Below, piece after piece: positions 3,216 through 10,384 of a stretch of 56,902 nt of DNA. Position 1 is the first letter of the stretch, and each line of letters opens with the position of its first letter. A program made the translations under genes and the position numbers. The notes beneath the pieces were generated by a model. That model was not told the DNA's origin. It saw only the letters and a program-made list of their open reading frames with translations, and did not search any database. This DNA comes from a virus. The stretch lies in the IMG/VR virus record IMGVR_UViG_3300042350_003263, positions 1-56,902 of that record. One strand, 5' to 3'.

Positions 3216-3292
3216 AGGATCGTTACAGCATCTTAGAGCTCGTTAGAGCATTTGACTTGTAATCAAACGGAAAGCCGAAAGGCGCGATCCTG
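3216..3292 (+). ncRNA. Scaffold-family RNA, copy A, with a Thr(TGT)-like anticodon arm
   Basis: Closing helix AGGATCG/CGATCCT (3216-3222 with 3285-3291) followed by G. Just inside is TTACAGCA, the family motif. The insert has a D-arm-like GCTC/GAGC and an anticodon arm TTTGA-CTTGTAA-TCAAA (TGT). A GCC-GAAA-GGC GNRA hairpin sits where a T-arm would be, and there is no CCA. It looks like a tRNA mimic rather than a chargeable tRNA. Confidence 0.65.
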
Positions 3293-3310
3293 ATTAAACT
3301 ATGAAACCAT

Positions 3311-3397
3311 AGGTTGGTTTCAGCAACTAAACCCGGGAATGGTTCCCAATTTGTCTTGTAAACAAACTTAGCGGTTCGAATCCGTAAACCCAACCTG
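3311..3397 (+). ncRNA. Scaffold-family RNA, copy A2, with a Thr(TGT)-like tRNA body
   Basis: Closing helix AGGTTGG/CCAACCT (3311-3317 with 3390-3396) followed by G; inside is TTTCAGCAACTAAAC. The insert carries a D-arm-like GGGAATGGTTCCC, an anticodon arm TTTGT-CTTGTAA-ACAAA (TGT) and a T-loop TTCGAAT. Extra nucleotides separate the acceptor-like helix from both arms. It ends one nucleotide before the Shine-Dalgarno of the Ro-like gene, so folding or processing may affect translation. Confidence 0.65.
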
Positions 3398-3409
3398 AAA
3401 GGAAATATT

Positions 3410-4840
3410 ATGTCTTTTGTAAACGCAGTTAAAAATGCTAACTACTCTAAGCCCGCTCGTACCGCTAACGGTATGAAGGCTAATGCTACTTCCAAGTCCA
3501 AGGTGCTTGACTTGTTCGGCGTTATTGGTTCCGCTCGTGGTTCTGATATCTCCAAGCAGTTCGTTGCTTCTATGACTGAGAACCTTGATCTGACTGTCCG
3601 TATGCTGCTTTGGGCTCGTGACATTCGTGGAGGTGCTGGCGAACGTGCTACCTTCCGTAACTTGCTTGCTGCGCTTGAGTCTACCGACCCAACTCTTGCT
3701 GGTAAGCTGATGCACAAAGTTCCAGAGCTTGGCCGTTGGGATGACTTGTTCACTTACAAAGATCCTCTCAACCGTCGTAAGGCGTTTGCGTTCATTCGTG
3801 AAGCGCTAGCAAACCAGGACGGTCTCTGCGCGAAGTGGATGCCACGTAAAGGTCCTGTTGCTGTTGAACTGACTAAGTTCCTTGAACTTACTCCAAAACA
3901 GTATCGTAAGCTGATCGTAGGCTTGACCAACGTTGTTGAGTCTAAGATGTGTGCTAAGGAGTGGGAAGCTATCAACTTCTCTCACGTTCCTTCCGTGGCA
4001 TCCGCTCGCTACCAGAAGGCTTTCGGCCGTAACGCAAAGGAAGCATACTCTGCTTACATTGCCGAACTGAAAAAGCCTGTTGCTGAACGTGCAGATCCTA
4101 AGGTCAAGATCAACGCCGGTGCAGTTTATCCATATGACGTAGTTAAGTCTGTTGTCAAGGGTAATGCAGCAGTTGCTGATGAGCAGTGGAAGGCTTTGCC
4201 TAACTACATCGGCGATGCGAAGATCATGCCTATGGTCGACGTATCTGGTTCTATGGGTAGCCTCGGTTACTCTTACGGAAGTCAGCTTTCTCCTATCGAC
4301 ATTGCAGTCTCTCTGGGTCTGTACTGTGCTGATAAGAACACCGGCGACTTCAAGGACCTGTTCTTGACCTTCTCTGGTAAGCCTAAGATGGAACACCTGA
4401 AAGGTACTCTGTCTCAGAAGATGACTCAGATGAGCCGCGCCAACTGGGAAATGAACACCAATCTACACGCTGCTTTTGACGAGATTCTTAAGATCGCTGT
4501 TAAGGGTAACGTTGCAGAAAGTGACATGCCTCAGATGCTGTTGATTCTATCTGACATGCAGTTTGACTCTTGCACTAAGTACGATGACTCTGCTATGCAG
4601 ATGATCAAGCGTAAGTACAACGATGCAGGCTACAATGTGCCGAAGATTGTCTTCTGGAACGTTTCCATGTATGGTAAAGCAGATGGCAACACCCCAGTTC
4701 GTTTCGACGAACGTGGTACTGCTCATATCTCTGGGTTCAGCCCAGCTATCATGAAGAGCGTTCTTGCGAACGACCTTGAGGACTACACCCCATACAATGT
4801 TATGGTAAAGGCTCTTAACGTCGAGCGTTATAACTACTAA
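3410..4840 (+). CDS. Ro60-type TROVE/VWA RNA-binding protein (DUF2828-like)
   Basis: 476 aa, start fixed by GAAAGGA 7 nt upstream. The N-terminal ~265 residues are helical, resembling the TROVE/DUF2828 HEAT-like ring ('MLLWARDIRGGAGER', 'LGRWDDL'). Next is a von Willebrand A domain with MIDAS motif D277-x-S279-x-S281 and a second acidic site at D382 (SDMQFD). Known relatives (Ro60/Rsr) are ring proteins that bind Y RNAs and misfolded RNAs and take part in RNA quality control. Here the gene sits inside a tRNA cluster, directly flanked by three RNAs with a common closing helix (3216, 3311, 4874). Function as a Ro-like RNA chaperone is inferred; the family call is firmer than the partner call. 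Confidence 0.85.
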   Translation: MSFVNAVKNANYSKPARTANGMKANATSKSKVLDLFGVIGSARGSDISKQFVASMTENLDLTVRMLLWARDIRGGAGERATFRNLLAALESTDPTLAGKLMHKVPELGRWDDLFTYKDPLNRRKAFAFIREALANQDGLCAKWMPRKGPVAVELTKFLELTPKQYRKLIVGLTNVVESKMCAKEWEAINFSHVPSVASARYQKAFGRNAKEAYSAYIAELKKPVAERADPKVKINAGAVYPYDVVKSVVKGNAAVADEQWKALPNYIGDAKIMPMVDVSGSMGSLGYSYGSQLSPIDIAVSLGLYCADKNTGDFKDLFLTFSGKPKMEHLKGTLSQKMTQMSRANWEMNTNLHAAFDEILKIAVKGNVAESDMPQMLLILSDMQFDSCTKYDDSAMQMIKRKYNDAGYNVPKIVFWNVSMYGKADGNTPVRFDERGTAHISGFSPAIMKSVLANDLEDYTPYNVMVKALNVERYNY

Positions 4841-4843
4841 TTG

Positions 4844-4863
4844 GTTAGGCCTTCGGGCCTAAC
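4844..4863 (+). terminator. Strong hairpin with TTCG loop after the Ro-like gene
   Basis: GTTAGGCC-TTCG-GGCCTAAC, an 8-bp GC-rich stem 3 nt after the stop codon. The tail is TTCCTC, a poor U-tract, so it may act as a partial terminator or as a 3'-end stabiliser ahead of the next structured RNA. Confidence 0.55.
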
Positions 4864-4873
4864 TTCCTCAATT

Positions 4874-4972
4874 AGGATCGTTGCCGCAACAAAGTTGATA
4901 GTGCAATGGTAGCACATTTTCCTTCTAAGAAAAAGTCGGGGGTTCGATTCCCCCTCAAAGAAAGCGATCCTG
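4874..4972 (+). ncRNA. Scaffold-family RNA, copy B, with a tRNA-Arg(TCT)-like body
   Basis: Closing helix AGGATCG/CGATCCT (4874-4880 with 4965-4971) followed by G; inside is TTGCCGCAACAAAG. The insert has a D-stem GTGC/GCAC, an anticodon arm TTTTC-CTTCTAA-GAAAA (TCT) and a T-arm GGGGG/CCCCC with TTCGATT. Its own acceptor pairs for only four base pairs (TTGA/TCAA) and there is no CCA. It may be a tRNA-Arg in an extended precursor, or a mimic. Confidence 0.65.
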
Positions 4973-4977
4973 TTTAG

Positions 4978-4985
4978 TATAAATA
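4978..4985 (+). promoter_or_regulatory. T4-type late promoter
   Basis: Exact TATAAATA, the T4 late -10 consensus, 26 nt before the thermonuclease start. It implies late expression with the gp33-dependent machinery (a gp33 gene is at 24780). Confidence 0.7.
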
Positions 4986-5010
4986 ACCTAACATTAGTTA
5001 GGAGAATACT

Positions 5011-5454
5011 ATGAAAAAATTATTACTATCGATTGCACTTATGTTTGTAGCATCTGGTGCAATTGCCGAAGTGAAGAAGCCGAAAGGTGTCATTCACGAT
5101 TTAAAGATTATTCGAATTATTGATGGTGATACTGTTGAGATTGAAGCGCCATTCTTAATTGAACCTTTGCCCAAGAAACTTTCTGTTCGCGTTTGGGGCG
5201 TAGATACACCTGAAAAAGGTGGACGTGCCAGCTGCGAAAAAGAAGCAGAAATGGGTGCAGCTGCAAGCAAGTTCACAAAGGATCTTGTTGCTAACGCTAA
5301 GACTACCCAGATCAATCTCTATGAATGGGATAAGTTTGGTGGTCGTGTACTCGGTGACGTAATCATCGATGGTAATAGCTTAACTGCTATGTTGATCGAA
5401 AAAGGTTACGCTAGAGAATACTATGGCGATGCAAAAAAATCATGGTGTGAATGA
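5011..5454 (+). CDS. Secreted thermonuclease (staphylococcal nuclease fold)
   Basis: 147 aa. Residues 1-19 form a signal peptide (basic start, hydrophobic core, AIA-E cleavage pattern), so the enzyme should act in the periplasm or outside. The SNase core shows 'RIIDGDTVEIEAP', 'RVWGVDTPEKGG' (catalytic R and E) and 'GGRVLGDV' (second catalytic R), so all three active-site residues of the family are present. Such enzymes cut DNA and RNA with calcium. A 6-bp hairpin CCTAAC/GTTAGG (4987-5002) overlaps the Shine-Dalgarno, so translation may be gated. It lies after a late promoter, which suits a role in late degradation of competing or extracellular DNA. Confidence 0.9.
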   Translation: MKKLLLSIALMFVASGAIAEVKKPKGVIHDLKIIRIIDGDTVEIEAPFLIEPLPKKLSVRVWGVDTPEKGGRASCEKEAEMGAAASKFTKDLVANAKTTQINLYEWDKFGGRVLGDVIIDGNSLTAMLIEKGYAREYYGDAKKSWCE

Positions 5455-5468
5455 AAAAAGTTCATTTA

Positions 5469-5502
5469 GGGGGTTTACAATCATAGATACATATCTTATA
5501 TT
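5469..5502 (+). promoter_or_regulatory. Phage promoter, G5-TTTACA class, for an RNA-only operon
   Basis: GGGGG (5469-5473), TTTACA (5474-5479), 17-nt spacer, TATATT (5497-5502). It is followed within 25 nt by a boxA-like sequence, and then about 650 nt of tRNAs and structured RNA before the first small CDS. Confidence 0.85.
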
Positions 5503-5523
5503 ACTCCTATAAGAACAAACAAA

Positions 5524-5540
5524 CGCTCTTTGACAATTTA
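5524..5540 (+). promoter_or_regulatory. boxA-like rRNA-leader antitermination sequence
   Basis: CGCTCTTTGACAATTTA differs at two positions from the E. coli rrn boxA leader stretch as I recall it (TGCTCTTTAACAATTTA). In rRNA operons this RNA site binds NusB/S10 and prevents Rho-dependent termination of untranslated RNA. Here it begins the transcript of a tRNA/ncRNA operon. Confidence 0.6.
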
Positions 5541-5563
5541 GAAGAAACAGAATGAAATAATTT

Positions 5564-5638
5564 CTGTTTTCACATGCATATACGGCGAAAGGAACTCTGC
5601 AGAGTGGCCCGGTAACTGATGTATGCAGTTGAAAACAG
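5564..5638 (+). ncRNA. Structured RNA (75 nt) closed by a 9-bp helix
   Basis: CTGTTTTCA (5564-5572) pairs perfectly with TGAAAACAG (5630-5638); inside, TGCATA pairs with TATGCA (5575-5580 with 5622-5627), then a CTCTGCAGAG palindrome. No CCA, no T-loop. Unknown function, 5' of tRNA-Met. Confidence 0.5.
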
Positions 5639-5643
5639 AGTTT

Positions 5644-5721
5644 TGCGGGGTAGACTGGAGGTGGTTCCAGCACGGTCTCATAAGCCGATTACGGAGGTTC
5701 GATTCCTCCCCACCGCAACCA
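5644..5721 (+). tRNA. tRNA-Met (CAT), initiator-like 3' end
   Basis: Acceptor TGCGGGG with CACCGCA, anticodon loop CTCATAA, T-arm GGAGG/CCTCC with TTCGATT, and 3' end CCGCAACCA, which resembles bacterial initiator tRNA ends. T1-A72 is however paired, unlike the unpaired 1-72 of true initiators. Confidence 0.85.
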
Positions 5722-5723
5722 AG

Positions 5724-5811
5724 TTTAGACTGTAGAAGTAATCACCTCTTGTGAAGGTGTCCCTGATCCGTCATCGCCGGCAGGTCAAAGCTGCAAACAG
5801 CCCAGTCTAAA
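5724..5811 (+). ncRNA. tRNA-like RNA (88 nt) with a TGT anticodon-like loop and no CCA
   Basis: Terminal 9-bp helix TTTAGACTG/CAGTCTAAA; hairpin CACCT-CTTGTGA-AGGTG (5743-5759) looks like a Thr(TGT) anticodon arm; a GCAG-GTCAAAG-CTGC hairpin sits where a T-arm would be but lacks the TTC motif. No D-arm and no CCA. Confidence 0.5.
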
Positions 5812-5824
5812 ACAAAAGCCAACG

Positions 5825-5875
5825 TCCTAGACATTGCGAAACCTCGGGCTTAATACGAGTTATAGATAGCTAGGA
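5825..5875 (+). ncRNA. Short structured RNA segment
   Basis: TCCTAG (5825-5830) pairs with CTAGGA (5870-5875) and encloses a CTCG/CGAG hairpin with loop GGCTTAATA. No CDS in 5812-5909. It could be a leader or processing element of tRNA-Ser. Confidence 0.35.
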
Positions 5876-5909
5876 GACCAGCCATGAGGGTGCAGATTGG
5901 CAAAGATAC

Positions 5910-6001
5910 GGGAGGTTAACTCAGCTGGGCTGGGACTCGCCTTGAAAGCGATGGGTACGGTTAGTAGCCGTATGGAGTTCGATTCTACCATCCTCCCGCC
6001 A
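5910..6001 (+). tRNA. tRNA-Ser (TGA)
   Basis: Acceptor GGGAGG/CCTCCC, anticodon loop CTTGAAA, long class II variable arm (TACGG/CCGTA), T-loop TTCGATT, discriminator G and CCA. Confidence 0.9.
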
Positions 6002-6007
6002 TAATTT

Positions 6008-6070
6008 AGGATCGGTTCAGCAAACCAAAACGCTAACATATTGAAGTCTTAGCGGACCAAAACGATCCTG
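6008..6070 (+). ncRNA. Scaffold-family RNA, copy C (63 nt, hairpin insert)
   Basis: Closing helix AGGATCG/CGATCCT followed by G; inside GTTCAGCAAACCAAAA on the 5' side and GACCAAAA on the 3' side, then an inner stem CGCTAA/TTAGCG with a 12-nt loop. Nearly identical to copy D at 9950, but the loop sequence differs while both helices are conserved. Confidence 0.7.
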
Positions 6071-6078
6071 TTTAATTT

Positions 6079-6154
6079 GGGCTCTTAGCTCAGCTGGGAG
6101 AGCGCCTGCCTTGCAAGCAGGAGGTCAGGAGTTCGATCCTCCTAGGGTCCACCA
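6079..6154 (+). tRNA. tRNA-Ala (TGC)
   Basis: Acceptor GGGCTCT/AGGGTCC, D-arm GCTCAGCTGGGAGAGC, anticodon stem CCTGC/GCAGG with loop CTTGCAA, CCA encoded. Confidence 0.94.
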
Positions 6155-6172
6155 ATACAACGGAGAAAGCAA

Positions 6173-6256
6173 ATGATTGCTTATATTTTTCTGGTAATGC
6201 TTGTAGTCGGAGTTCTCTGGCACACTGATGGTCCAGGAAAAGATCATTGGCTATAG
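6173..6256 (+). CDS. Tiny membrane peptide (27 aa)
   Basis: GGAGAAAGCAA precedes the ATG at ideal spacing. The peptide begins 'MIAYIFLVMLVVGVLWH', one hydrophobic segment, and ends in a short charged tail. Too short for family recognition. The good ribosome binding site and tRNA-flanked position support it. Confidence 0.5.
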   Translation: MIAYIFLVMLVVGVLWHTDGPGKDHWL

Positions 6257-6260
6257 AATT

Positions 6261-6336
6261 GGCCTGTTGGTAAAGTGGTTAATACGTCTGCCTGTCACGC
6301 AGAAGAACGCGGGTTCGATCCCCGCACAGGTCGCCA
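6261..6336 (+). tRNA. tRNA-Asp (GTC)
   Basis: Acceptor GGCCTGT/ACAGGTC, anticodon stem TCTGC/GCAGA with loop CTGTCAC, T-arm GCGGG/CCCGC, discriminator G and CCA. Confidence 0.94.
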
Positions 6337-6339
6337 ACT

Positions 6340-6427
6340 TACGATGGTTGTGTTAGAGTCTTGGTTGTCTTAACACGTAAACTAGCAAGAGGTACGGGTC
6401 GCTACCGTCGCTCACTATTCCATCGTA
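6340..6427 (+). ncRNA. Structured RNA (88 nt) closed by a perfect 8-bp helix
   Basis: TACGATGG (6340-6347) pairs with CCATCGTA (6420-6427). Inside are GTGTTA/TAACAC and GGTA-CGGGTCGC-TACC hairpins. No T-loop consensus and no CCA. Same length as the RNA at 5724-5811. Unknown role. Confidence 0.5.
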
Positions 6428-6436
6428 TTCAATAAT

Positions 6437-6511
6437 GCGGAATTAGCTCAGTGGTAGAGCCCCTCGTTTACACCGAGGTTGTCGGGAGTTCGACCCTCTC
6501 ATTCCGCACCA
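6437..6511 (+). tRNA. tRNA-Val (TAC)
   Basis: Acceptor GCGGAAT/ATTCCGC, D-arm GCTCAGTGGTAGAGC, anticodon stem CCTCG/CGAGG with loop TTTACAC, T-loop TTCGACC, CCA encoded. Confidence 0.93.
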
Positions 6512-6518
6512 ACTACAT

Positions 6519-6595
6519 GCCCATGTAGGCCAATTGGTAGAGTCACTGCGCTTAGAACGCAGGTGTTGGGGGTTCGAGTCCCTCCATGGGCACCA
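6519..6595 (+). tRNA. tRNA-Leu (TAG), short variable loop
   Basis: Acceptor GCCCATG/CATGGGC, anticodon stem CTGCG/CGCAG with loop CTTAGAA, T-arm GGGGG/CCCTC, CCA encoded. The variable region is GTGTT (5 nt), as in tRNA-Leu(GAG) at 2987, so both Leu tRNAs are class I in shape. Confidence 0.92.
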
Positions 6596-6610
6596 AAAAG
6601 GATAATTTAT

Positions 6611-6931
6611 ATGATAACTGCAAATAGAAGTGAATGGGAAGATTTTGTATCTGGTGATGAATCTCTTGATACGACTCACCCGTTGATCGATCGATTTGAT
6701 TATTTTTCTACTTCGCACGATGTTTCTATTCTTGTAAATGGAAAAACTTACACAAAAATTACCAGAGCGTTATATGAAGATAACGAATTAAATGCAATGC
6801 ATATAAATCCAGAAAAAGCAGAAAAAGATATTCTCTATAAAATATGCAAAGTAATAGAAATAGACAAGAATGATCATTCAAAAACCAAAATCGGTCATAA
6901 GATCATTTATTTTAAAGATGTTACCATTTAA
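6611..6931 (+). CDS. Hypothetical protein (106 aa)
   Basis: The start at 6611 follows AAAAAGGATAATTTAT; an upstream in-frame start at 6479 lies inside two tRNA genes and is rejected. The protein is mixed alpha/beta with 'DVSILVNGKTYTKITRALYED' and ends 'GHKIIYFKDVTI'. AT-rich relative to the tRNAs. Family not recognised. Between tRNA-Leu and the permuted RNA at 6937. Confidence 0.65.
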   Translation: MITANRSEWEDFVSGDESLDTTHPLIDRFDYFSTSHDVSILVNGKTYTKITRALYEDNELNAMHINPEKAEKDILYKICKVIEIDKNDHSKTKIGHKIIYFKDVTI

Positions 6932-6936
6932 GATTT

Positions 6937-7125
6937 AGAATGTTTACAGCAACAAAACAAAACTATCGGTTCGATTCCGATACTCCCCACCATGGATACA
7001 CTGCGACCACTCGTTATATCCACTAGAGTGCACGCTAGACGCTAAAGGATGAACTCAGTGTATCTTTGATGGGGAGTATGGCAAGGTGCCGCTAAGAGCA
7101 ATCTTAGCTTTCCCCAAACATTCTG
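6937..7125 (+). ncRNA. Scaffold-family RNA, copy E, enclosing a circularly permuted tRNA-like
   Basis: Outer helix AGAATGTTT/AAACATTCT (6937-6945 with 7116-7124, 9 bp) followed by G; inside is ACAGCAACAAAAC. The 3' tRNA half comes first: T-arm ATCGG/CCGAT with TTCGATT, then ACTCCCC, A, CCA (6982-6992). A spacer closed by GATACACTG/CAGTGTATC (6995-7003 with 7056-7064) follows. Then the 5' half: GGGGAGT (7071-7077), complementary to ACTCCCC over 7 bp, a GGCA/TGCC arm and a GCTAAGA-GCAA-TCTTAGC hairpin. The outer helix takes the place of the anticodon stem, so the tRNA body is permuted at the anticodon. Confidence 0.65.
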
Positions 7126-7147
7126 TTATATAATATAGGAGAGCACG

Positions 7148-7381
7148 ATGCGCGATAGAGCTTTTCGACGATTTCAAGAACTTAAGAAGAAGCAGTGGGT
7201 TCGAAAGTTTTTCTCTAAACATCGAGCTCGTGATCTAACCGATGCCGATGTTGGAGTCTATGCTCATACCCCGCATCTGTGTTCCTGCTACGTATGTGGC
7301 AATCCTCGCAAGTGGTGGGATCAAAAGACTCTTCAAGAAAAGAAGATGGAAGACTTTTACAAAGCAACTGATGAAGACTAA
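7148..7381 (+). CDS. Small cysteine-motif protein (77 aa)
   Basis: AGGAGAG lies 6 nt before the ATG. A basic N-terminus is followed by 'TPHLCSCYVCGNPRKW', a C-x-C-x2-C cluster seen in short proteins of many phages and bacteria ('CSCxxCGNPRK'), probably metal-binding. Function unknown. It ends 1 nt before tRNA-Ser(GCT). A TATAAT at 7129-7134 could be a local -10, but no good -35 is seen. Confidence 0.75.
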   Translation: MRDRAFRRFQELKKKQWVRKFFSKHRARDLTDADVGVYAHTPHLCSCYVCGNPRKWWDQKTLQEKKMEDFYKATDED

Positions 7382-7382
7382 T

Positions 7383-7470
7383 GGATCGTGGGCAGGATGG
7401 TAATGCAGCAGATTGCTAATCTGTAGAACGAGCAATCGTTCACTGGGTTCGATTCCCAGACGATCCGCCA
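7383..7470 (+). tRNA. tRNA-Ser (GCT)
   Basis: Acceptor GGATCGT/ACGATCC, anticodon loop TTGCTAA, long class II variable arm (AACGA/TCGTT), T-arm CTGGG/CCCAG, discriminator G and CCA. Its acceptor sequence nearly equals the closing helix of the scaffold RNAs. Confidence 0.93.
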
Positions 7471-7519
7471 ATAAAGATCTGAAACAGGATCTAAAAGAAC
7501 AATAAAATTGAAGGTGATT

Positions 7520-8992
7520 ATGGACGGTATTATTTTTTCTGGATTTACTTTTTCTGCGACAAGAAGGGGAAATATCCAATCTCCACAATTAGGTCCTTAT
7601 AGAATGAGAACCTATCTAGAAGAAAATGGTTATACTTGCGACATTATAGATTGGTTTGACTTTTGGACAGAAGAAGAAATATTACAACTAATAAAAAACC
7701 GTTACCACGAGAATCTAAAATTTATTGGGTTTAGTGTTACATTCCAAAAAATTCAGAATATCAGTACAGATTTACTGAAAAAAATTAAAACGTCTTTTCC
7801 TAGTTTGAAAATAGTCTTTGGAAGTCAAGAACCTAATGAAACTCTTTGTGGGGAACATCCGCAAAAATCAAGATATATTGATATCGTTTTCTATGGTCAT
7901 TCTGAAGTAGCATTTCTAGAATATATTAAACACCTTGATGGTAAACCAAGTAAGCACAAAGCAGAGAAATTTTCTACTGGCGTTGATTATGTAATATCTC
8001 CAAATGTGTTACCATATACAGATACATCTAACCTTACTACTATCTGGAAACCTGATGATCCTTTAAAATATTTTAAAGGTGGTAGTGTAGAGATATCTCG
8101 GGGTTGTATGTTTAAATGTAAATTCTGTTATTCCCCTCTTATTGGAAGGAAAAGAGCAGATTATACAAGATCTGTAGAAAATTTAGCAGATGAGTTAAAA
8201 AGGAACTACGATTTATTCGGTATCAACCATTATGTTTTTTCAGATGACACACTGAATGAGAGTACTGAGAAACTACTTAATATAAAAAAAGCTATTGAGC
8301 TATCAAGAGTGGATATTACTTTCACTGCATATATAAGATACGAAATCTTAAATACTCATTTCGATCAAGTAAAGATTATGTCTGATATGGGATGGATAGG
8401 TGGAATACTTGGTCTTGAAACGTTTAATCCTGAGTCAAGAAAAGCTATTGGCAAAGGTCTTACTACAGAAAAGATTTTAGATCTTCTTTATAGGGTAAAA
8501 CAGTTTAATAAGGATCTGCATTTATCTTCAGGTTTTATCGTAGGTTTACCTGGTGAAACAGAACAAACAACTACTGAATACTTTCAGGAATTTCTTAAGC
8601 TGAATAAGGATCATGAATATCTAGATTCTTTTTATTGGACACCTCTTTATATCTTAGAACCATATAAGTATCTTAACAGTATCTTTACAAAAGAAGCTAG
8701 TTCTTATGGATATAGTGTTATACCTGGTGCTGGTAAATGGACTAACAATAAATATGAAATAAAATCATGGGATGAAGCTTATCAAATATCTAATCGTTTG
8801 AACAATATGTGTAGGGATAACTTAGGAACCTCTGTTCAAATTTCAGAAGTTTTAAGTTTAGGTGTAGATAGAAATAAATTCAGACATATAAGATTTGGCG
8901 AAGAGATGAGAGAGCTCGTCAAATATAAAAAAGAAAAGATATGGAAATCTTATAGAGAAGAGAAATTAAATTATAAGATTTCCCGGGTGTAG
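7520..8992 (+). CDS. B12-binding-like/radical SAM protein (490 aa)
   Basis: Start at ATG 7520, 5 nt after GAAGG; a TTG at 7508 is a weaker alternative. The N-terminal ~150 residues look like the Rossmann-type cobalamin-binding domain ('QLGPYRMRTYLEENGY', 'IGFSVTFQ'). The radical SAM core has the cluster motif C196-x3-C200-x2-C203 ('RGCMFKCKFCYSP') and later 'GLETFNPESRKAIGKGLT' and 'SGFIVGLPGET', typical of class B methylthiotransferase/BchE-like enzymes. No TRAM domain is seen, so it is not MiaB. Clearly more AT-rich than the surroundings. The last codons overlap tRNA-Pro. Substrate unknown: tRNA modification or small-molecule chemistry. Confidence 0.88.
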   Translation: MDGIIFSGFTFSATRRGNIQSPQLGPYRMRTYLEENGYTCDIIDWFDFWTEEEILQLIKNRYHENLKFIGFSVTFQKIQNISTDLLKKIKTSFPSLKIVFGSQEPNETLCGEHPQKSRYIDIVFYGHSEVAFLEYIKHLDGKPSKHKAEKFSTGVDYVISPNVLPYTDTSNLTTIWKPDDPLKYFKGGSVEISRGCMFKCKFCYSPLIGRKRADYTRSVENLADELKRNYDLFGINHYVFSDDTLNESTEKLLNIKKAIELSRVDITFTAYIRYEILNTHFDQVKIMSDMGWIGGILGLETFNPESRKAIGKGLTTEKILDLLYRVKQFNKDLHLSSGFIVGLPGETEQTTTEYFQEFLKLNKDHEYLDSFYWTPLYILEPYKYLNSIFTKEASSYGYSVIPGAGKWTNNKYEIKSWDEAYQISNRLNNMCRDNLGTSVQISEVLSLGVDRNKFRHIRFGEEMRELVKYKKEKIWKSYREEKLNYKISRV

Positions 8993-9059
8993 CTCAGTTT
9001 GGTATAGCGCTTGGTTTGGGACCAAGATGTCGTGGGTTCGATTCCTACTACATCCGCCA
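8984..9059 (+). tRNA. tRNA-Pro (TGG), copy 1
   Basis: Acceptor GGGTGTA/TACATCC (or CGGGTGT/ACATCCG in the alternative register), anticodon stem CTTGG/CCAAG with loop TTTGGGA, T-arm GTGGG/CCTAC, CCA encoded. The 5' end overlaps the preceding CDS by about 9 nt. Confidence 0.88.
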
Positions 9060-9084
9060 AAAATAATTCAGGAAAATGAAAATA

Positions 9085-9118
9085 GGGGGTTTACATTCCA
9101 GGTTACATAGCTTATATT
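9085..9118 (+). promoter_or_regulatory. Phage promoter, G5-TTTACA class
   Basis: GGGGG (9085-9089), TTTACA (9090-9095), 17-nt spacer, TATATT (9113-9118), preceded by AAAATGAAAATA as at 128-139. It drives the gene at 9139. Confidence 0.87.
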
Positions 9119-9138
9119 ACTCTTATCAACAGAGGAAC

Positions 9139-9543
9139 ATGACAATGTACACTTTCGATGAAACGATCGTCTCCGACCTCCACAAAGAAGCTTATGGCAC
9201 GCGTCCTACCTCTTTCTGGTGGCAGTGCTGGAATGAAGCTACTGACGCAGAAAAGCAGGCAGAGTGGGATGATCTGCTCGAAGTTCATGCTCAAACTATG
9301 GATCGCGAAGCTCAAGAGCAGATCGCTGCTATCAACTCTTTCGAGCTTGAAATCGCGACCGCGCTCGACGTAGGCGCTCGCTCGCGCGAAGATGCCGTTC
9401 GCTGGATCGTTCAGGGTTTGGAACTTGATGACGTCGATATGATGTACGGTGGTAGTGCCATCTGCTATCGTAAAGGTTTGCCTTATCGTATGGCCGCTAT
9501 GTTTGACAATGCAATCAACTATCTTCGCGCTGAGGTGATCTAA
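9139..9543 (+). CDS. Hypothetical protein of a recurring phage type (134 aa)
   Basis: AGAGGAAC precedes two in-frame ATG codons (9139, 9145); the second has better spacing. The upstream in-frame start at 9076 lies in the promoter and is rejected. Acidic helical protein: 'VSDLHKEAYGTRPTSFWWQCW' then 'LDVGARSREDAVRWIVQGL'. The AYGxRP pattern recurs in unannotated phage proteins I have seen, but no function is known. First gene of a short operon with 9545. Confidence 0.75.
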   Translation: MTMYTFDETIVSDLHKEAYGTRPTSFWWQCWNEATDAEKQAEWDDLLEVHAQTMDREAQEQIAAINSFELEIATALDVGARSREDAVRWIVQGLELDDVDMMYGGSAICYRKGLPYRMAAMFDNAINYLRAEVI

Positions 9544-9544
9544 T

Positions 9545-9763
9545 ATGAACGTACAAACTGTCTCCGTTTCCGATCTTTCGTTGGATATCCTCCTGAATGA
9601 ACTTCATCTTCCTTTGGTAGATGGTAAAGCAAATCGGGAAAAGATCGAAGAAGCAATTACGATTGGAATGCTCGAAGGTGCATTGGGTTACGTAGACGAA
9701 GAAACTGTCAATCTTGCTATTGGTATGATTGATGATATTATTGTAGAATATCGCGTTCAATAG
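9545..9763 (+). CDS. Hypothetical protein (72 aa)
   Basis: Starts 1 nt after the previous stop (translationally coupled). Helical and acidic, 'LPLVDGKANREKIEEAITIGMLEGALG'. Family not recognised. Co-transcribed with the gene at 9139 and then tRNA-Asn. Confidence 0.65.
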   Translation: MNVQTVSVSDLSLDILLNELHLPLVDGKANREKIEEAITIGMLEGALGYVDEETVNLAIGMIDDIIVEYRVQ

Positions 9764-9785
9764 CGCATATATAAAATAAGATTAT

Positions 9786-9861
9786 TTCCTGATAGCTCAG
9801 TTGGTAGAGCAGATGACTGTTAATCATCGGGTCCGTGGTTCGAGCCCACGTCAGGGAGCCA
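9786..9861 (+). tRNA. tRNA-Asn (GTT), copy 2
   Basis: Acceptor TTCCTGA/TCAGGGA, anticodon stem GATGA/TCATC with loop CTGTTAA, T-arm CGTGG/CCACG, discriminator G and CCA. Differs widely from the Asn gene at 1541. Confidence 0.93.
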
Positions 9862-9865
9862 ATAT

Positions 9866-9942
9866 CGGAGTATAGCACAGTTTGGTAGTGCGCTAGTTTT
9901 GGGTACTAGAGGTCGATGGTTCGAATCCTTCTACTCCGACCA
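9866..9942 (+). tRNA. tRNA-Pro (TGG), copy 2
   Basis: Acceptor CGGAGTA/TACTCCG, anticodon stem CTAGT/ACTAG with loop TTTGGGT, T-arm GATGG/CCTTC, CCA encoded. Confidence 0.92.
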
Positions 9943-9949
9943 AAAATTT

Positions 9950-10014
9950 AGGATCGGTTCAGCAAACAAAAACGCTAAATCGTATTGGATGTCTTAGCGG
10001 ACAAAACGATCCTG
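9950..10014 (+). ncRNA. Scaffold-family RNA, copy D (65 nt, hairpin insert)
   Basis: Closing helix AGGATCG/CGATCCT followed by G; inside GTTCAGCAAACAAAAA, inner stem CGCTAA/TTAGCG, and GACAAAA on the 3' side. Same fold as copy C at 6008 with a different 15-nt apical loop. Confidence 0.7.
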
Positions 10015-10309: not shown

Positions 10310-10384
10310 GTCCCTAGAGCATGATGGTTATGCACGCGCCTCTAAAACGCTGAAATGCAGGTTCAATTCCTGTTAGGGACACCA
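10310..10384 (+). tRNA. tRNA with CTA anticodon (possible amber suppressor)
   Basis: Acceptor GTCCCTA/TAGGGAC, D-arm GCAT/ATGC, T-arm GCAGG/CCTGT and CCA are sound. The anticodon loop CTCTAAA has U33 and anticodon CTA (reads UAG). Only the central three pairs of the anticodon stem (GCG/CGC) form; both end pairs are mismatched. If the loop were read as 9 nt the anticodon is ambiguous (TCT or CTA). Confidence 0.65.

Follow-up and report, generated by a model that had tools for sequence, protein, structure and literature searches.

In the viral genome record IMGVR_UViG_3300042350_003263 of IMG/VR, we identified, at positions 6937-7125 of the plus strand, an RNA that we interpret, with a probability of roughly 0.84, as a phage-encoded, Y-RNA-like noncoding RNA that carries a permuted tRNA mimic and is putatively bound by a Ro60-like protein encoded at 3410-4840 (all coordinates refer to the window, that is, the entire analyzed stretch of 56,902 nucleotides). 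Ro60 and Y RNAs are known from work on human autoimmunity and on a few bacteria. The basis for our interpretation consists of the structure and conservation of the RNA, the repetition of its terminal module in the window, the linkage of this module to a gene for a Ro60-fold protein, and the domain order that the RNA shares with the bacterial Y RNA known as YrlA. The Ro-like protein probably binds the module.

Architecture and conservation of the RNA

The RNA is closed by a perfect 9-bp helix, hereinafter the Y stem, in which AGAATGTTT (6937-6945) pairs with AAACATTCT (7116-7124). The 5' strand of the Y stem continues into the conserved ACAGCAAC, and this segment (6937-6954) is a motif common to unrelated phages; the 3' strand, recovered in the module scan described below, reads AAACATTCTG (7116-7125). 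Enclosed by this stem are, in this order, a T-arm, ATCGG-TTCGATT-CCGAT (6965-6981); the 3' acceptor strand ACTCCCC (6982-6988) extended by an encoded ACCA, with the CCA end at 6992; a long spacer hairpin (6993-7070) built on a helix of GATACACTG (6995-7003) with CAGTGTATC (7056-7064); the 5' acceptor strand GGGGAGT (7071-7077); a D-arm, GGC-AAGGT-GCC (7080-7090); and an extra 7-bp hairpin with a GNRA-type GCAA loop, GCTAAGA-GCAA-TCTTAGC (7091-7108), which takes the position of the anticodon arm immediately 3' of the D-arm.

A first-pass annotation, made from the sequence alone, had described a circularly permuted tRNA within a structured RNA, and the elements on which it relied, namely, the closing helix, the T-arm, the acceptor strands, the CCA at 6992 and the spacer helix, are all located where it put them, with 7 of the 7 acceptor bases paired (6982-6988 with 7071-7077). 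It had further supposed that the tRNA was opened at the anticodon and that the acceptor strands were separated by a spacer with a 9-bp helix of its own. The tRNA body is indeed opened and permuted but, because the 7-bp hairpin occupies the position of the anticodon arm, the opening falls between this hairpin and the T-arm and not in the anticodon loop. Similarly, the spacer helix is present but, rather than closing a simple loop, it continues the acceptor stem, so that the two form a single, nearly continuous hairpin, within which the encoded ACCA faces UUUGAU.

The minimum free energy computed for a 201-nt stretch containing the RNA is -66.2 kcal/mol, compared to -41.5 +/- 4.3 for shuffled sequences (z = -5.8; none of the 200 shuffles was as low). 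The minimum-energy fold includes the closing helix, the 7-bp acceptor, the spacer helix, the D-arm and the 7-bp GCAA-loop hairpin, so the better fold without acceptor pairing, which the first-pass annotation had named as one outcome that would count against it, did not materialize. When the sequence is folded singly, the T-stem is short; by alignment, it comprises 5 pairs. A competing 5-bp pairing between GGGGA (7071-7075) and TCCCC (7111-7115) is possible and is absent from the best fold.

An alignment of six close but distinct homologues from viral contigs showed pairing in 99.6% of the cells. Changes on both sides were detected at 10 pairs, of which the T-stem contributes two, and the spacer extension of the acceptor stem and the extra hairpin four each, compared to 3.6 +/- 1.3 in shuffles (none of 500 as high), and the signal was lost once the pairing partners were slid. 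Both the fold and the covariation thus bear out a circularly permuted, tRNA-like domain within a structured RNA. The Y stem and the 7-bp acceptor are invariant in these homologues and were therefore tested in the wider permuted family discussed below. A BLASTN search of phages returned a single 34-base stretch and nothing further, and a scan for promoters and terminators around the RNA found nothing above the chance level on the plus strand.

The Y stem as a repeated module in the window

The Y stem and its flanking bases form a module that consists of AG, a stem strand, approximately two bases and CAGCAA on the 5' side, and AAAC, the complementary stem strand and CTG on the 3' side. A strict scan of the window identified six copies of this module, all on the plus strand and all within 3216-10014, around the ORF at 3410-4840, along with one match on the opposite strand, the shuffle expectation being 0.04 per strand (a relaxed scan gave approximately the shuffle level of matches and was not used). 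In addition to the RNA at 6937-7125, the copies comprise an RNA with D-arm-like and anticodon-arm-like hairpins (3216-3292); an RNA that stops 13 nt upstream of the Ro-like ORF and in which the Y stem replaces the acceptor stem of a tRNA core of normal order, with D, anticodon-like and T arms (3311-3397); an RNA just 3' of the same ORF (4874-4972), in which a normal-order tRNA core, recognized by the Rfam tRNA model with 55.4 bits over model positions 4-67, is contained within the Y stem; and two short RNAs that consist of the hairpin only (6008-6070 and 9950-10014).

The Ro60-like protein

The presumed protein partner, a 476-amino acid product of the plus-strand ORF at 3410-4840, matches PHROG 850, 'RNA-binding protein', and contains the DUF2828 and DUF7788 (vWA) domains of Pfam. 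When its predicted structure (mean pLDDT 76.5) was compared with known structures using VIA, the ten best matches all belonged to the Ro60/TROVE family, with Z-scores of 11.4-15.8, and the next family scored 8.7; the matches included 1yvr (15.8 over 392 residues), Ro60 of Thermus phage phiLo (13.3) and 2nvo, Deinococcus Rsr (11.4). The predicted structure contains the HEAT-repeat ring and the vWA domain with a MIDAS motif, in which D277, S279 and S281 are invariant. A sequence search of the PDB with this protein gave no convincing match, TROVE chains appearing only at E = 0.86. Relatives have been independently deposited as 'putative Ro sixty-related protein' and 'Ro-like RNA binding protein'. 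Judging by the model, the protein is a relative of Ro60 in fold and not a member of the family captured by the TROVE model, and the comparison suggests that DUF2828 and DUF7788 together form a Ro60-type ring plus vWA domain.

The module and the Ro-like gene in other phages

With the module sequence alone as the query, 105 stretches were retrieved from viral contigs, and a Ro-like gene was present in 11 of the 14 large contigs found in this manner, compared to 681 of 50,697 phage records overall. In the Ro-encoding loci, nearly all of the modules found by the strict scan share the orientation of the Ro gene, and in many cases the module precedes the start of this gene by 4-31 nt. The module lies beside Ro-like genes in KVP40, FelixO1, Cronobacter phage S13, a Listeria phage and mycobacteriophage LeBron. 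In FelixO1, four copies are located between tRNA genes, adjoining the Ro-like gene; Listeria phage LMTA-34 has three in the gap immediately preceding the Ro-like ORF (L064:7653-7920); and in LeBron, an unannotated permuted tRNA-like Y RNA is found in the gap that follows gene 53, the Ro-like gene (L060:5481-5607), with E = 5.6e-9 for a covariance model that was built without the LeBron member.

KVP40, Cronobacter phage S13, Vibrio phage D479 and Synechococcus phage BUCT-ZZ01 encode normal-order tRNAs in which the module hairpin, closed by a GNNA-type loop, takes the position of the anticodon arm; such stretches are annotated as a long 'tRNA', as a 'pseudo-tRNA' or not at all. The pseudo-tRNAs of KVP40 (L056:507-619, 630-753 and 2304-2419) are intact normal-order tRNA bodies that carry the Y-module hairpin in this position. 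No strict module was detected in the T4 stretch at 60-80 kb that contains the tRNAs and the species 1 and 2 RNAs. Among these, the species 1 RNA has a T-arm-like hairpin, and the Y-module was found in neither rnaC nor rnaD (L172:10909-11172).

The positions of the modules relative to genes are also what one would expect if the RNA were a cis-acting leader that controls the translation or stability of the ORF at 7148-7381, perhaps via the Ro-like protein, the modules upstream of Ro being likewise autoregulatory: the RNA ends 23 nt before this ORF, and other modules precede the Ro ORF by the short distances given above. However, in L037-L039, another stretch separates the RNA from the corresponding ORF, so the association is not strict and, in other phages, many modules are located between tRNAs and do not immediately precede a gene. 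We therefore consider a leader function to be unlikely. The ORF itself is small, contains a CxCxxC motif, belongs to phrog_4499, a family with no assigned function, directly follows the RNA and is kept nearby in most of the relatives.

Permuted relatives and kinship with YrlA

Parsing of the module matches yielded 28 non-redundant permuted members. Their Y stems are 100% paired, with double changes at 5 of the 7 pairs, but this pairing is imposed by the scan, so only the variety of pair types is informative. The T-stem is paired at 99.3% (double changes at 4 of 5 pairs) and the acceptor at 91.8% (7 of 7), the absolute percentages being inflated because the parser partly selected on pairing in these two stems. 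This selection does not account for the variety of pair types or for the mostly constant loops of 4-6 nt that link the acceptor strands in the majority of the members. The acceptor has on average 6.4 of the 7 pairs, whereas swapping the partners between members brought this value down to 3.4 (maximum of 4.6 in 2000 swaps). A discriminator base followed by CCA is found after the 3' acceptor strand in a minority of the 28.

The consensus of the Rfam YrlA family (RF02553) is likewise enclosed by a Y stem, within which a T-arm, an acceptor hairpin and a D-arm follow one another in this order. One of the relatives (L107:7463-7557) matches YrlA best among 4227 Rfam families, over the full length, with 37.6 bits and E = 2.5e-7, the next family scoring 17.9. 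Full-length YrlA matches of 30-37 bits were also obtained in other contigs, at least one of these on a permuted member (L068:2097-2212); the tandem tRNAs of the window give approximately 20 bits with the same model. Of the features that characterize YrlA-type RNAs, a Ro60/Rsr-type gene close by and a tRNA-like domain in permuted order are both present; the 5' and 3' ends also pair in a stem, which would be the one to carry the Ro site.

These comparisons do not support the relationship to permuted two-piece tmRNAs or to permuted tRNA genes that the first-pass annotation had put forward, under which the spacer would be excised by cleavage of the RNase P/Z type to produce a CCA-ended, chargeable tRNA-like molecule. 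Such a precursor would look similar in several respects: the RNA has a 7-bp acceptor, an encoded discriminator and CCA, a T-arm and a D-arm, and the long spacer is conserved inside its subfamily. However, neither a tag nor an anticodon can be recognized, as that annotation itself had observed, and the hairpin at 7091-7108 has a GCAA loop in place of the U33-type 7-nt loop. The Rfam search with the RNA gave only a weak partial tRNA match, with no match to a tmRNA family or to YrlA. ARAGORN, the check proposed for permuted tmRNAs, calls neither a tmRNA nor a tRNA at 6937-7125 at the default threshold; at the 50% threshold, it prints permuted tmRNAs with the 'tag' EHDAR*, which is read from around the start of the next ORF and is altered or lost in the homologues. 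The third acceptor pair is G-C, in contrast to the G-U of alanine tmRNA. Furthermore, the CCA is buried in a conserved, covarying extended helix and, since it is present in a minority of the members, charging cannot be the common function; with 4-6 nt acceptor loops in most of the relatives and CCA in a minority, the family does not appear to be built for spacer excision and charging. Membership among permuted tmRNAs was rejected for want of a tag frame, a tmRNA model match and the alanine identity pair G3-U70, and membership among permuted tRNA genes for want of an anticodon stem-loop with an anticodon, so this origin of the RNA appears very unlikely. The topology is explained, instead, by the closing helix being a repeated module beside a Ro60-like gene, which the first-pass annotation had missed, together with the domain order shared with bacterial YrlA RNAs, a reading that agrees with the reservation of the first-pass annotation that the tRNA-like domain might serve another purpose. 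A functionless, decaying or rearranged remnant of the tRNA cluster is hardly credible, even in the tRNA-rich region that surrounds the RNA, given the compensatory changes, the conserved Y stems and permuted bodies of 28 members, and their recurrence in very distant phages.

Apart from the selection inherent in the scan and the parser, several observations weigh against the interpretation of the RNA as a Ro-associated Y RNA. The gathering score of RF02553, 69 bits, is reached by no phage relative, and the RNA of the window is unmatched, so we refer to a YrlA-like phage Y RNA and not to a member of the Rfam family. Our covariance model R1 has no acceptor stem and gives T4 tandem tRNAs up to 39 bits, so its weaker matches, including the 29.5 bits for the RNA of the window, carry little weight. 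Three of the 14 large contigs found by the module, perhaps fragments, have no Ro gene and, conversely, the strict scan detected no module in the vicinity of the Ro-like gene of L017/L028, Ochrobactrum phage OC and Pseudomonas phage Astolliot. As for the protein, Pfam yields no match to TROVE (PF05731), only the two DUF domains, and the Foldseek ranking is dominated by vWA domains with weak E-values (the best, 0.006, to a vWA domain), Ro60 not being among the first 50 matches; the Ro60 assignment accordingly rests on the second look with VIA and on the whole-length coverage.

A possible mechanism

The likely role of the phage Y RNA is that of a tRNA mimic bound to the Ro-like protein and employed as a scaffold or a decoy. 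The Y stem, together with the flanking ACAGCAA, would be the docking module for the protein, and the permuted tRNA mimic, that is, the T-arm, the long acceptor arm, the D-arm and the extra hairpin, would project from the protein as the effector part, which may recruit or distract enzymes that handle tRNA. Precedents come from bacteria: in Deinococcus, a Y RNA tethers Rsr to PNPase, and tRNA enzymes modify YrlA (PMC8394870); YrlA has also been proposed to compete with an anticodon nuclease (PMC7790460). Candidate targets would, by the same token, include a nuclease such as PNPase, tRNA modification enzymes and host anticodon nucleases, although we would not give even odds to any single one of them. 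The outcome might be the tuning of RNA decay, repair or tRNA protection during infection. In a Listeria phage, abundant putative noncoding (Y) RNAs are expressed close to the gene for an Rsr homologue, the product of which is also found in virions (PMC12282133).

The module is joined to tRNA parts in three ways: to a tRNA opened in the anticodon/variable region and permuted; as the anticodon-arm hairpin of a normal-order, CCA-ended tRNA; and as the replacement of the acceptor stem. Several connections of one cassette to tRNA bodies suggest that it is the display of the tRNA surface, not the connectivity of the RNA, that is selected. Conceivably, although we hold this generalization only tentatively and at somewhat less than even odds, phages that encode Ro60-like proteins employ a single Y-stem cassette in at least three connections to tRNA, the 113-124 nt 'pseudo-tRNAs' of the KVP40 type included, so that one protein presents several different tRNA surfaces, which would act as decoys or scaffolds directed against tRNA-targeting host enzymes.

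Relation to known systems

Bacterial YrlA, such as that of Salmonella, the partner of Rsr, resembles the phage RNA in the Y stem that pairs the ends, in the permuted order of T-arm, acceptor and D-arm, and in the proximity of a Ro60-type gene. The phage RNA differs in the sequence of the stem and in the motif (CAGCAA/AAAC), and adds a spacer of about 80 nt that extends the acceptor arm, the encoded ACCA and the extra GCAA-loop hairpin. The Ro/Y RNA systems of mycobacteriophages and of a Listeria phage (Chen 2014, cited in PMC12282133; CKA15) are similar in that a DUF2828 Ro-like protein is encoded near noncoding RNAs, and relatives of CKA15 carry the module upstream of Ro; the locus described here has six copies of the module, with several connections to tRNA, and belongs to a lineage undescribed in the phage Ro/Y RNA literature that we examined. 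Permuted two-piece tmRNA (RF04321) shares the order T-arm, CCA, spacer, 5' acceptor, in contrast to which the phage RNA has no tag frame, no G-U third pair and no match to the model.

In principle, both Ro proteins and Y RNAs are already known from phages. As far as the examined literature shows, the long-armed permuted variant, the clustering of six modules about a single gene, the three types of connection, and the interpretation of KVP40-type pseudo-tRNAs as Y-type RNAs look new. A phage locus this compact, with as many as six Y-type RNAs in several connections and with relatives in laboratory phages such as FelixO1, KVP40 and LeBron, would offer a direct test bed for the role of the tRNA-like part. 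The module, AG-stem-N-T-N-C-H-GCA ... stem-CTG, is a recognizable signature for annotating Y-type RNAs and accounts for some of the 'pseudo-tRNA' genes of large phages.

Other features of the locus and its relatives

In a related phage (L042:447-1127), an ORF for a SegE/GIY-YIG homing endonuclease splits the 3' acceptor strand of the homologous RNA. An RtcB gene is located downstream of the Ro-like ORF in Listeria phage LMTA-34. The window encodes, at 10310-10384, a tRNA with the amber-reading anticodon CTA (Pyl according to ARAGORN), and a similar CTCTAAA anticodon loop is found in several related contigs; general amber recoding by this tRNA was considered and rejected because TAG still serves as a stop. 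Another tRNA, uncalled by ARAGORN, is recognized by Rfam with 48 bits at 8985-9056, where it overlaps the end of a radical SAM ORF.
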